A stretch of 24,909 nt of DNA from a virus. The notes under the pieces were generated by a model. The model was given only the letters and a program-made list of their open reading frames with translations. It was not told where the DNA came from and made no database searches. Made by a program: the position numbers and the translations under genes. The number at the start of each line of letters is the position of its first letter. Positions within the stretch are counted from its first letter, which is position 1. The stretch spans positions 1-24,909 of IMG/VR virus record IMGVR_UViG_3300046777_001131. One strand, 5' to 3'. This document shows positions 3,773 through 6,432 of the stretch, piece by piece.

Positions 3773-4076
3773 TGAAGAGCCAAAGCACACGCCGGGGCCG
3801 TGGGTAGCTTGGTTTGATGGCACATTTGGTATCTGGAATCTCACATACCCAGAACGTTTGGGCTACATTCTACTTCAAGCTGCGGGCTATTCTAACAAAA
3901 TCAATCTGAGTCCTGAGGACTGGAAACTCATCGCCGCCGCGCCTGAGATGCTGGAGGCGTTGAAATACCTTACGAAAGAGGTCGACGCTTGCGTTAACAA
4001 CGCGTGGCTTTGTAAACAGGCTAAGTACAAGGAAGCACTCGACGCCATCGCCAAAGCCGAAGGGAGGCACGTATGA
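3756..4076 (+). CDS. Conserved phage protein of the 'HTPGPW...LIAAAPEMLEAL' type
   Basis: The 106-aa product carries two landmarks of a very common phage protein family of unknown function: HTPGPW near the N-terminus (about residues 11-16) and DWKLIAAAPEMLEALKYL in the middle. The C-terminus is helical and Lys-rich. Two adjacent ATGs exist (3753 and 3756). The GGAGG at 3746-3750 gives better spacing to 3756, so that start is chosen. It overlaps the end of the SSB-like gene by 17 nt, so the SSB acidic tail and this ribosome binding site share the same DNA. Confidence 0.75.
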   Translation: MDSRSNEEPKHTPGPWVAWFDGTFGIWNLTYPERLGYILLQAAGYSNKINLSPEDWKLIAAAPEMLEALKYLTKEVDACVNNAWLCKQAKYKEALDAIAKAEGRHV

Positions 4077-4201
4077 TAAACTTCCGTCCGCACTTGCTAT
4101 ATCGTACCTTTAAAGTCATCGGCGTACTGATCGGAGCGACGCTCCTATGCGTCGGCGTCGTCGGTGCTATCGCTAACCTCTTCCTATGGTTTGCTAAATG
4201 A
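4073..4201 (+). CDS. Tiny single-pass membrane protein (42 aa)
   Basis: ATGA overlaps link this frame to both neighbours, and AGGGAGG lies just upstream, which together support translation. The basic N-terminus (MINFRPHLLYRTFK) is followed by one long hydrophobic helix (VIGVLIGATLLCVGVVGAIANLFLWF, 15-40) with small residues (Gly, Ala) spaced along it, and the protein ends with AK. The family is not recognised. Confidence 0.6.
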   Translation: MINFRPHLLYRTFKVIGVLIGATLLCVGVVGAIANLFLWFAK

Positions 4202-4641
4202 AATACACACCCCAACTCCACGACAAGACCGAACGCCTCGCCCGTGGTATCACCCTCGTACGCAGTGGTTCGATCATGTACATCGAAGCGAGCTTCCGTT
4301 CGCCGTCGATGGGATTCGCAGAGACTGCACAGTTCGACGTCTTACCCGGTGGTATGCTCGAAGCGATGGAACAGGCGCGCGCATGGTATAAACGGAAGGA
4401 TCTCGACATGCACGCTGCACGCAAGCGTCGCAACACGGAAACACGCCGCGAGCTTCGCATCCGTGGCGAGATGCGCGCCGTCGAAGAACATCGCGCACAG
4501 ACGATCGAATCGCAGATCGAACGCGAGATCCACAACGGATCGGTCGTCGAAGCAGCCCGGCAGGACGTCGCCCGCGTGTGGGCGTTATATGGTCCGGCAC
4601 TCGACGAGCATCGCTATCGAACATCAGATTTCCAATGGTGA
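4198..4641 (+). CDS. Hypothetical protein with a charged helical middle (147 aa)
   Basis: The start is ATGA-coupled to the tiny membrane protein gene. Residues 1-55 look strand-rich (ITLVRSGSIMYIEASFRSPSMGFAETAQFDVLPGG). Residues 57-125 form a long, strongly charged helix with many Arg and Glu, likely a coiled coil or nucleic-acid contact. I do not recognise a family or a catalytic motif. Long open frames overlap it on both strands because of its GC-rich codons; they lack start coupling and ribosome binding sites. Confidence 0.65.
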   Translation: MKYTPQLHDKTERLARGITLVRSGSIMYIEASFRSPSMGFAETAQFDVLPGGMLEAMEQARAWYKRKDLDMHAARKRRNTETRRELRIRGEMRAVEEHRAQTIESQIEREIHNGSVVEAARQDVARVWALYGPALDEHRYRTSDFQW

Positions 4642-4645
4642 GCGC

Positions 4646-4873
4646 ATGATCTACGAAGTAACAACGACCGTGACCATAACGCGTAAGCACATGGTCGAAG
4701 CAGACGGCGAAGAGACGGCGAAGGAGCAGGCGGAGACGCTCACCATGAGATGGATTATGTGTAACGCTCACGGGGGTAAAGCCAACGACTACGGGACTAA
4801 CAAAACACTCCACATCGAACAAGATGCCGTCGAGATCACATCGCCTAACGACGAAGCGAAGAAGTACATCTAA
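4646..4873 (+). CDS. Hypothetical protein (75 aa)
   Basis: A longer frame opens upstream at 4244, but that would overlap the previous gene for its whole length. The ATG at 4646, 4 nt after the previous stop, is the natural start. The protein begins with a strand of alternating Thr/Val (YEVTTTVTITRKHMVEA), continues with a helix (GEETAKEQAETLTMRWIM) and a Gly/Asn loop, and ends with strands. This alpha/beta pattern is common in small phage proteins that process an array-like input, but no family is recognised. It is the last gene before a 185-nt structured gap. Confidence 0.55.
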   Translation: MIYEVTTTVTITRKHMVEADGEETAKEQAETLTMRWIMCNAHGGKANDYGTNKTLHIEQDAVEITSPNDEAKKYI

Positions 4874-4874
4874 C

Positions 4875-4891
4875 GCGTTCACAACGAACGC
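4875..4891 (+). promoter_or_regulatory. Short hairpin right after the early operon
   Basis: GCGTTC (4875-4880) pairs with GAACGC (4886-4891) over a 5-nt loop, beginning 2 nt after the TAA at 4873. No T-run follows, so it could mark an mRNA 3' end or a weak terminator rather than an intrinsic terminator. Confidence 0.3.
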
Positions 4892-4978
4892 ACAACATCA
4901 TTCACTAACTACGGACGATATGGCGTAAGCACCCCGAACAAGCGCCAAAGCTCACGCGGGATCGTAAGCAGCGCAGGA

Positions 4979-5036
4979 CTACCGCACGCGACGAGCTGCA
5001 TCGTCGGGCGTGTCCGGGTTCGACTCCCGGCGGTAG
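4979..5036 (+). ncRNA. tRNA-like three-way junction with canonical T-arm
   Basis: CCGGG-TTCGACT-CCCGG (5014-5030) is a textbook tRNA T-arm with the GTTCGANTC consensus. It is directly followed by CGGTAG (5031-5036), which pairs with CTACCG (4979-4984) as an acceptor-like stem stacked on the T-arm exactly as in tRNA. Between them, CACGC/GCGTG (4985-4989/5008-5012) and GACGA/TCGTC (4990-4994/5001-5005) form one 10-bp arm with a GG bulge and a 6-nt loop. Only one base (5013) is unpaired at the junction. No D-arm, 7-nt anticodon loop or CCA is present, so it is not a normal tRNA. It ends 22 nt before the methyltransferase ATG. A free RNA, a 5'-UTR element or a tRNA relic are all possible. Confidence 0.45.
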
Positions 5037-5058
5037 GCAAAGGATAACAGGAGACACT

Positions 5059-6156
5059 ATGAACTACACACTACATAACGGCGACTGCCTCGAAGTACTC
5101 CGCACCATGTCCGACAACAGCGTCGACGCGGTCGTGACCGATCCGCCGTATGGGCTGGCATTCATGGGGAAGAAATGGGACTACGACGTGCCAAGTATTC
5201 AGATTTGGCAAGAGTGCCTTCGGGTACTCAAACCCGGCGGTCATCTACTCGCATTCGCGGGAACACGAACGCAACATCGTATGGCAGTGCGTATTGAAGA
5301 TGCGGGTTTTGAGATACGCGACATGATCGCTTGGGTGTACGGCAGCGGGTTCCCTAAGTCACACGACATAAGCAAGGCGATTGATAAGGCGGCGGGGGCG
5401 GAGCGTGAGGTGGTGGGTAAGTATATACGCCCTGACGGGACAGATCGCGACTATACAGAATGGCAGATACACACCGGACAATGGAGATACAACTCAGGAT
5501 TTGACCCATCGCAACGCGCCCAGACCGCCCCCGCAACACCCGCCGCAAAGCAGTGGGAAGGCTGGGGAACAGCGCTGAAGCCCGCACTCGAACCGATCAC
5601 CGTTGCACGTAAGCCGTTCACGGGAACAGTAGCGGAAAACGTGTTAGAGTGGGGGACGGGGGGTATTAATGTGGACGGGTGTAGGGTGGGGACGGATGCC
5701 GAAGAGCCGAACGCACGGAAACAAAAAAGCAAGCTTGGAGTAACTATTAATAATCAAGTATACAACGACGGATGGGTTGGCACTGGTTGCTCATGGGATG
5801 GCACCCTTGGCCGCTTCCCCGCCAACCTGATACACGACGGTAGTGATGAGGTGGTTGGGTTTATGGGTGAGTCATTCCGTTTCTTCTACTGCGCGAAGGC
5901 GAGCAAGGCAGACCGTGGAGACGGTAACAATCACCCAACCGTCAAACCGACTGACCTCATGCGCTACCTGTGCCGCCTCGTAACGCCGCCCAATGGTATC
6001 GTCCTTGACCCCTTCACAGGGTCAGGCTCCACAGGCAAAGCCGCCATCCTCGAGGGGTTCCAGTTTATCGGCATCGAACGCGAAGCGGAATACATTGAGA
6101 TAGCACGGGCACGGATCGAGCATGCACTAAACAGCAAACCGAACACGCTATTCTAA
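5059..6156 (+). CDS. DNA adenine-N6/cytosine-N4 methyltransferase (beta type)
   Basis: The 365-aa enzyme is a member of the N6_N4_Mtase family. DPPY (28-31), the catalytic motif IV, comes first, followed by VLKPGGHLLAFAG. Near the C-terminus are the motif X-like NNHPTVKPTDLMRYL and the SAM-binding motif I, DPFTGSGSTG (317-326). Motif IV before motif I is the beta-type order. The roughly 150-residue region between them, with a Trp/Gly-rich stretch, would hold target recognition. It would transfer a methyl group from SAM to the phage's own DNA, most likely against host restriction. No cognate endonuclease gene is adjacent, so it is an orphan enzyme. AGGAGA precedes the ATG, and the tRNA-like fold lies just upstream. 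Confidence 0.93.
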   Translation: MNYTLHNGDCLEVLRTMSDNSVDAVVTDPPYGLAFMGKKWDYDVPSIQIWQECLRVLKPGGHLLAFAGTRTQHRMAVRIEDAGFEIRDMIAWVYGSGFPKSHDISKAIDKAAGAEREVVGKYIRPDGTDRDYTEWQIHTGQWRYNSGFDPSQRAQTAPATPAAKQWEGWGTALKPALEPITVARKPFTGTVAENVLEWGTGGINVDGCRVGTDAEEPNARKQKSKLGVTINNQVYNDGWVGTGCSWDGTLGRFPANLIHDGSDEVVGFMGESFRFFYCAKASKADRGDGNNHPTVKPTDLMRYLCRLVTPPNGIVLDPFTGSGSTGKAAILEGFQFIGIEREAEYIEIARARIEHALNSKPNTLF

Positions 6157-6171
6157 CAACAACACCGGAGA

Positions 6172-6248
6172 CCGTCGGCGGCGCGTGGAACCGTCGTCAG
6201 AATACCTCCGAGACCCGGCGACCGACGGCGAACCGGGCGATATTTTTT
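6172..6248 (+). promoter_or_regulatory. Structured gap with interlocking stems and a T-run
   Basis: CCGTCGG (6172-6178) can pair with CCGACGG (6222-6228). CCCGG (6214-6218), inside that loop, can pair with CCGGG (6233-6237) beyond it. The two stems cross, so they form either a pseudoknot or two alternative folds. A run of six T at 6243-6248 follows, 5 nt after the second stem, giving an imperfect terminator-like end. CCGTCG at 6191-6196 is a further possible partner of 6223-6228. The ribosome binding site CTGGAGA for the next gene comes right after. Confidence 0.4.
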
Positions 6249-6261
6249 CACTGGAGAACAC

Positions 6262-6432
6262 ATGAAAACAACACCATCACTCGACGAGCTACTATCACAG
6301 CTCGCACAGCCTAAGAAGGTCACCGCCTACTCATTCGCGGTTCGACTGCTTACGATGTCGACGATACTCTTGCTACTGCTTACGATGTTCGTCTTTGTAG
6401 CTAAATGCCTATACTGGACGCTGTCATGGTAA
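6262..6432 (+). CDS. Small membrane protein (56 aa)
   Basis: CTGGAGA precedes the ATG. The first 24 residues are polar (SLDELLSQLAQPKKV). Residues 26-50 are strongly hydrophobic (AVRLLTMSTILLLLLTMFVFVAKCL), forming one transmembrane helix, and the end YWTLSW is aromatic. The family is not recognised. Its location directly before the primase-helicase gene, beside another tiny membrane protein, is not a usual holin position, so I do not call it a holin. Confidence 0.55.
   Translation: MKTTPSLDELLSQLAQPKKVTAYSFAVRLLTMSTILLLLLTMFVFVAKCLYWTLSW

Follow-up and report, generated by a model that had tools for sequence, protein, structure and literature searches.

An intercistronic tRNA-like RNA element of uncultured phages: structure, conservation and possible processing by host tRNA-maturation enzymes

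The DNA analysed here (hereafter the window) is a stretch of 24,909 nucleotides from the IMG/VR virus record IMGVR_UViG_3300046777_001131, in which a gap of 185 nt (4874-5058) separates a small gene from a DNA methyltransferase gene on the same strand (Table 1). The gap contains a tRNA-like RNA element that ends 22 nt before the methyltransferase ATG at 5059. A sequence-only reading of the window had given the same gap and distance and had described a 6-bp acceptor, a T-arm, a 10-bp bulged hairpin and one junction base, all of which are present. The element is the core of a longer conserved unit that begins at ~4908. A hairpin further upstream (4875-4890) probably lies outside this unit, because it is not present in all lineages. 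Beyond the methyltransferase gene, a 106-nt leader (6157-6262) precedes the next small gene and is 96-98% conserved, compared with 87-90% for the primase gene; it ends in CCGGGCGATATTTTTTC, stands before a different gene (Dcm) in two related loci (L087 and L083), folds no better than shuffled sequences and has no Rfam match.

Table 1. Features of the locus in window coordinates, with the basis of each assignment.
Feature	Position	Strand	Basis
Small upstream gene, 75 aa, no family match	4646-4873	+	homologue search
Hairpin GCGTTC...GAACGC, right after the stop codon of the upstream gene	4875-4890	+	missing in some lineages
Conserved 5' part: SD-like purines (AGG/GGA), start-stop mini-ORF, stem S1, GGGATCGTA box	4908-4978	+	alignments A4, A7
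Putative mini-ORF, ATG GCG TAA	4920-4928	+	homologue comparison
Stem S1: TGGCG (4921-4925) with CGCCA (4943-4947)	4921-4947	+	alignment
GGGATCGTA box	4958-4966	+	invariant in all lineages having the unit
Core tRNA-like element, three-way junction RNA	4979-5036	+	MFE fold, covariance model, homologues
P1, acceptor-like stem, 6 bp: 5' strand CTACCG, pairing with CGGTAG (5031-5036)	4979-4984	+	fold
P2, side arm in place of D and anticodon arms, 10 bp: CACGC-GACGA-loop-TCGTC-GG-GCGTG	4985-5012	+	fold, alignment
P3, T-arm: CCGGG-TTCGACT-CCCGG, 5-bp stem, 7-nt loop, T-loop consensus UUCRANY	5014-5030	+	fold
P1 3' strand CGGTAG, then unpaired G-CA	5031-5039	+	sequence; 3' flanks compared
N6/N4 DNA methyltransferase (PF01555), optional cassette 3' of the element	5059-6156	+	domain match, relatives

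The three-way junction is both the minimum free energy fold and the centroid structure of the core element (-27.8 kcal/mol), with a folding energy that is only moderately unusual (z -2.2; equalled by 5 of 200 shuffles). In the window, the GG bulge of the side arm lies at 5006-5007, its loop has 6 nt (4995-5000, GCTGCA) and the junction is left with a single unpaired base, U5013. Every copy of the element has a T-loop of the form UUC(G/A)ANU, an acceptor directly continuous with the T-stem and, on the 3' side of P2, a GG-containing bulge 4-5 bp from the junction. Other lineages have an acceptor of 7 bp, so that acceptor and T-stem together form a tRNA-like 7+5 stack (with one T-stem mismatch in L237), whereas the acceptor has 6 bp in the clade of the window, where the outermost pair is an A.G mismatch. 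The side arm is short in the window and long in five copies, which carry the apical motifs UUGGCG and GGAUUCAUG, and its sequence is not kept between the two forms. An encoded CCA is absent from the 3' side of all copies. We also searched with a descriptor composed of a T-arm with a TTCRANY loop, a 6-bp acceptor and a side arm closing the gap between them. This pattern occurs once in the real window and twice in 400 Markov-1 windows (0.005 expected per window); on 1.4 Mb of related loci it matched true homologues only, and in five shuffled sets nothing at all. The element is not a chance fold.

Homologues were found in L084, L085, L087 (two copies), L080, L095, L097 and L237, and the available set comprises eight distinct sequences from four lineages of uncultured phages, the records being metagenomic and mostly fragments. 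The loci with the closest primases included three close relatives in which the element is present (L084, L085/L093 and L087), and L080, reached via its methyltransferase, has a divergent element at the same place. In L087 a second, divergent copy follows shortly after the first and has the inner motif GTTGGCGCGGATTCATG in common with L080, and L095 and L097 were found by scanning for this motif. A scan for GGGATCGTA together with a T-arm returned 100 stretches, nearly all of them ordinary phage tRNAs, plus L237, which lies outside our covariance model (R1, built on seven sequences, the window among them), scores 57 bits against it (E 3e-10) and folds by energy alone into the same three-way junction; the window, its own sequence being part of the model, scores 60.9 bits (E 5.6e-11). 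The other new loci of that scan score like ordinary phage tRNAs and were set aside, as were two weak model matches: L043, which looks like the 3' part of a tRNA on the other strand, and L074, a tRNA with an odd anticodon loop. Matches to the apical motif in bacterial genomes look like chance, and the element was not found there. There are no further copies in the whole records of the element-carrying phages, none in the distant terminase relatives (L091, L113-L115, L120, L122 and L131) and no match among 50,697 phage isolates; a plasmid search gave only short, weak matches. As a separate observation, tRNA-like genes lie down- or upstream of phage methyltransferases in L016 (4315-4610) and L074 (2192-2262), where ARAGORN gives abnormal anticodons (gaaa, tg, aa) rather than three-base ones; in L016 a further T-arm element, the third, contains a long insert.

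Identity of the element among close relatives is 97-100%, compared with mostly 76-90% for the flanking DNA (the exceptions being the leader at 6157-6262 and, in L085, a nearly identical part of the small gene). Where these copies differ, they do so in loops, by one additional base in that of P2 and at one variable position of the T-loop. In the seven-sequence alignment 95.7% of cells pair and 12 pairs have changed on both sides, values reached by none of 500 shuffles, with slid controls only 28-42% paired. A hand alignment that includes L237 retains pairing in 159 of 168 cells and shows double changes at 16 of 21 pairs, spread over P1, P2a, P2b and P3; in P1 alone six pairs have such changes, or seven if the outermost is counted. 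The sequence-only reading had proposed a search for compensatory changes in the three stems among related phages and had named homologues with unpreserved stems as the opposing outcome; the former are there, with pairing kept. The structure is thus under selection, maintained by compensatory change in all three stems, and together with the acceptor/T-arm stack this bears out the original idea of a tRNA mimic. That the element mimics the acceptor/T-arm half of tRNA is supported.

What is constant across the relatives is the element and ~70 nt upstream of it. We set the 5' end of the unit at ~4908 on the basis of L085, where additional sequence (3951-4510; minus strand in L093) that apparently contains a small gene separates the unit from the small upstream gene. 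The fourth pair of stem S1 covaries (C-G, U-G or U-A). The GGGATCGTA box might be taken for part of a second T-arm, given that GGGATCGTAACCC is the T-arm in many phage tRNAs (pattern search), but this reading was dropped because the 3' strand is not complementary in this unit. Partly inside S1 lies a start-stop arrangement that resembles phage minigenes: in the window (4913-4928) a start codon has SD-like purines 5-6 nt upstream and a stop 1-2 codons on, and the arrangement is kept in all eight units (MA*, MV*, MVL* or MVM*), the homologous putative mini-ORFs reading ATG GTC TAA, ATG GTT (CTG/ATG) TAA and ATG GTT TGA.

How does this element relate to known RNAs? It has the 7-bp acceptor, 5-bp T-stem and TTCRANY loop of a tRNA (6+5 in the clade of the window); it does not form a cloverleaf, having neither a D-arm nor a 7-nt anticodon loop with U33 (the P2 loop has 6 nt in the window), and ARAGORN finds no tRNA gene either in the window or in its element-carrying relatives. 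No Rfam family reaches its gathering score on the window element, and no cis-regulatory or riboswitch family comes near threshold in the Rfam scans. The best sub-threshold Rfam match of three copies is mascRNA-menRNA (RF01684), at 18.3, 19.8 and 21.9 bits against a gathering score of 42.5. Like the phage element, mascRNA and menRNA (of MALAT1 and MEN-beta) stack an acceptor on a T-arm, have a reduced remainder and lie inside a longer transcript, from which mascRNA is released by RNase P and RNase Z; they differ in belonging to mammalian nuclear lncRNAs, whereas the phage element is intercistronic and has one GG-bulged side arm, and no homology is implied. Metazoan mitochondrial tRNAs of the tRNA-Ser(AGN) type likewise keep acceptor and T-arm while missing the D-arm, but the element also has no tRNA-type anticodon arm, its place being taken by a bulged hairpin of 10 bp whose loops are different in the long form. 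Bacterial Y RNAs (YrlA), which contain a tRNA-like module and imitate tRNA, are comparable as bacterial or phage RNAs that do so; compared by Rfam scans only, the element has no match to them and no Ro-binding stem was identified.

The tRNA-like domain of tmRNA and the viral tRNA-like structures, to which the element had initially been likened, share its acceptor/T-arm mimicry and are both RNase P substrates (PMC11143913). They differ in that tmRNA has a long insert, a tag ORF and an encoded 3' end and the plant-virus structures are located at the 3' ends of genomes; the element, for its part, lacks an encoded CCA, a D-loop and a pseudoknotted acceptor. The likeness therefore stands as tRNA mimicry in a loose sense but not as a match to a tmRNA or viral model in Rfam, of which there was none, nor did ARAGORN call a tmRNA. 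The C4 RNA of phages P1 and P7 is a structured, phage-encoded RNA of ~77 nt whose excision from a longer transcript by host RNase P has been reported (Hartmann et al. 1995, as summarised in PMC5320573 and PMC11143913). C4 works through a pair of antisense loops, whereas the hallmark of the phage element is its T-arm; a C4-type antisense RNA was rejected, since the C4 model is absent among the Rfam matches up to E 10 and the best duplexes between the unit and the window, where complementarity was searched, lie within the shuffled range. The element is thus outside tRNA, tmRNA, mascRNA, C4 and other Rfam families as tested, we found no description of it in the open-access literature, and this structured RNA family appears to be new.

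RNase P measures an acceptor and T-stem of 11-12 bp with a UUCRANY T-loop (PMC4919913), and the acceptor/T stack of the element has what the enzyme structurally requires. The non-tRNA substrates of bacterial RNase P include mRNAs, tmRNA, 4.5S RNA and phage C4 RNA (PMC4919922, PMC11143913; for C4 also PMC5320573). The stack, this range of substrates and mascRNA as the nearest Rfam family of three copies together make a processed intercistronic tRNA mimic the best explanation, with a probability that we put at about one half: host RNase P, and probably 3' tRNA nucleases, would process the phage mRNA and free a tRNA-like RNA. The compensatory changes, the conservation above that of the flanks and the changing genes behind a constant unit speak for it as well. 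The element would be transcribed within a polycistronic phage mRNA, between the small gene and a variable cargo position, and would be handled by host tRNA-maturation enzymes like a pre-tRNA. RNase P, gauging the acceptor/T stack, would cleave at the 5' side near 4978/4979; the 3' end would be trimmed near 5037-5039 by RNase Z or 3' exonucleases. Cleavage would split the upstream from the downstream mRNA and free a stable tRNA-like RNA of ~60-75 nt, and the released fragment may be of some benefit. Bacterial RNase P prefers a 3' RCCA, and the missing encoded CCA counts against processing by this enzyme.

The conserved upstream box, the apical UUGGCG/GGAUUCAUG motifs and the GG bulge exceed what a bare processing site would need, which suggests another binding partner and leaves room both for a function in trans and for a rebuilt tRNA elbow. 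The GG bulge lies on P2 4-5 bp from the junction and the T-loop on its own arm 5 bp from it, and we tentatively propose that the bulge docks into the T-loop as G18-G19 do in a tRNA. The elbow of such a minimal mimic would be rebuilt without a D-loop, and host enzymes would take an RNA with a single side arm for the top of a tRNA, whether as a processing signal or as a decoy. Engagement of a tRNA-binding enzyme, as first suggested from the sequence, is plausible. If the RNA acted in trans, processing would be only its production route, and it would serve as a decoy or inhibitor of a tRNA-binding protein such as EF-Tu, the CCA-adding enzyme, an aminoacyl-tRNA synthetase or a tRNA-cutting defence nuclease. 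The GG bulge in every copy, the apical motifs of the five long forms and the two tandem copies in L087 speak for such a role, which we nonetheless consider rather unlikely: the side-arm sequence differs between short and long forms, and no tRNA genes adjoin the element.

The sequence-only reading also allowed for control of the methyltransferase gene, and the gene content of the relatives does not favour this. The upstream neighbour recurs in L080, where a homologue of the small gene (41.7% identical) lies upstream of the element, but the downstream side is variable: a methyltransferase in the window and in L080, a ParB-like gene directly in L095 and L097, a small HTH protein in L237, and in L087 the second element followed by a helicase, a methyltransferase and Dcm. 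The element occurs independently of the methyltransferase, an optional cassette that is cleanly missing after it in L084, L085, L095 and L097 and gives way to another adjoining gene in L087 and L237. With content this variable, the methyltransferase is a passenger, and the RNA is presumably not its private regulator. A riboswitch-like leader or other translational control acting in cis on the downstream gene consequently seems improbable to us, although the element lies 22 nt from the ATG in the window and shortly upstream of a homologous methyltransferase in L080; nor do the folds show an alternative pairing with the ribosome-binding site.

Two side observations concern the cassette position. 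The 1055-bp methyltransferase insert of L080 (2620-3685) has GCAACAT, the 3' flank of the element, at both ends, and L095 represents the corresponding empty site. The cassette after the two elements of L087 (1422-4748) encodes a SNF2-like helicase, an N6/N4 methyltransferase and a cytosine-5 methyltransferase, which suggests that this site may be a hot spot for DNA-modification genes.

A structured RNA that lies within a long block of co-directional genes, occurs twice in L087 and has no terminator called around it on the plus strand between 4600 and 6600 could act in cis by modifying the transcribing RNA polymerase, in principle comparable to the put RNAs of phage HK022. We give such antitermination little credence, as a put-type model, in a comparison made in principle only, leaves the T-loop, the 5-bp stem and the stacked 7-bp acceptor unexplained. 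Equally doubtful is a site for DNA attachment or recombination that arose from the 3' end of a tRNA and serves the insertion of cassettes, the relic that had been raised as the alternative to a mimic. Cassettes start within a few bases of the 3' end of the element in two lineages and a repeat flanks the L080 insert, but the repeat has only 7 nt, no integrase was identified near the element, and a relic would not keep its acceptor and side-arm pairing by double substitutions of the kind found here; the 21-mer GGGTTCGACTCCCGGCGGTAG does not occur in 798 sampled genomes of two phyla, which is a weak test. Phages often carry tRNA genes, and the consensus T-arm might suggest one in decay, but this is the least probable reading, since ARAGORN calls none in the window or the relatives, the element has no D-arm and no usable anticodon arm, and stems that covary in an element more conserved than its flanks are the opposite of decay.

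tRNA-like RNAs cut from longer transcripts are known from mammals, from plant viruses and, in another form, from phages P1 and P7. If the processed tRNA mimic set out above is correct, these phages would use the host tRNA-maturation machinery as an mRNA-processing tool, and the element would offer a compact natural case for testing the features by which RNase P, RNase Z and the CCA enzyme recognise a tRNA. The mini-ORF, the invariant GGGATCGTA box and the GG bulge yield predictions that are specific and can be tested.
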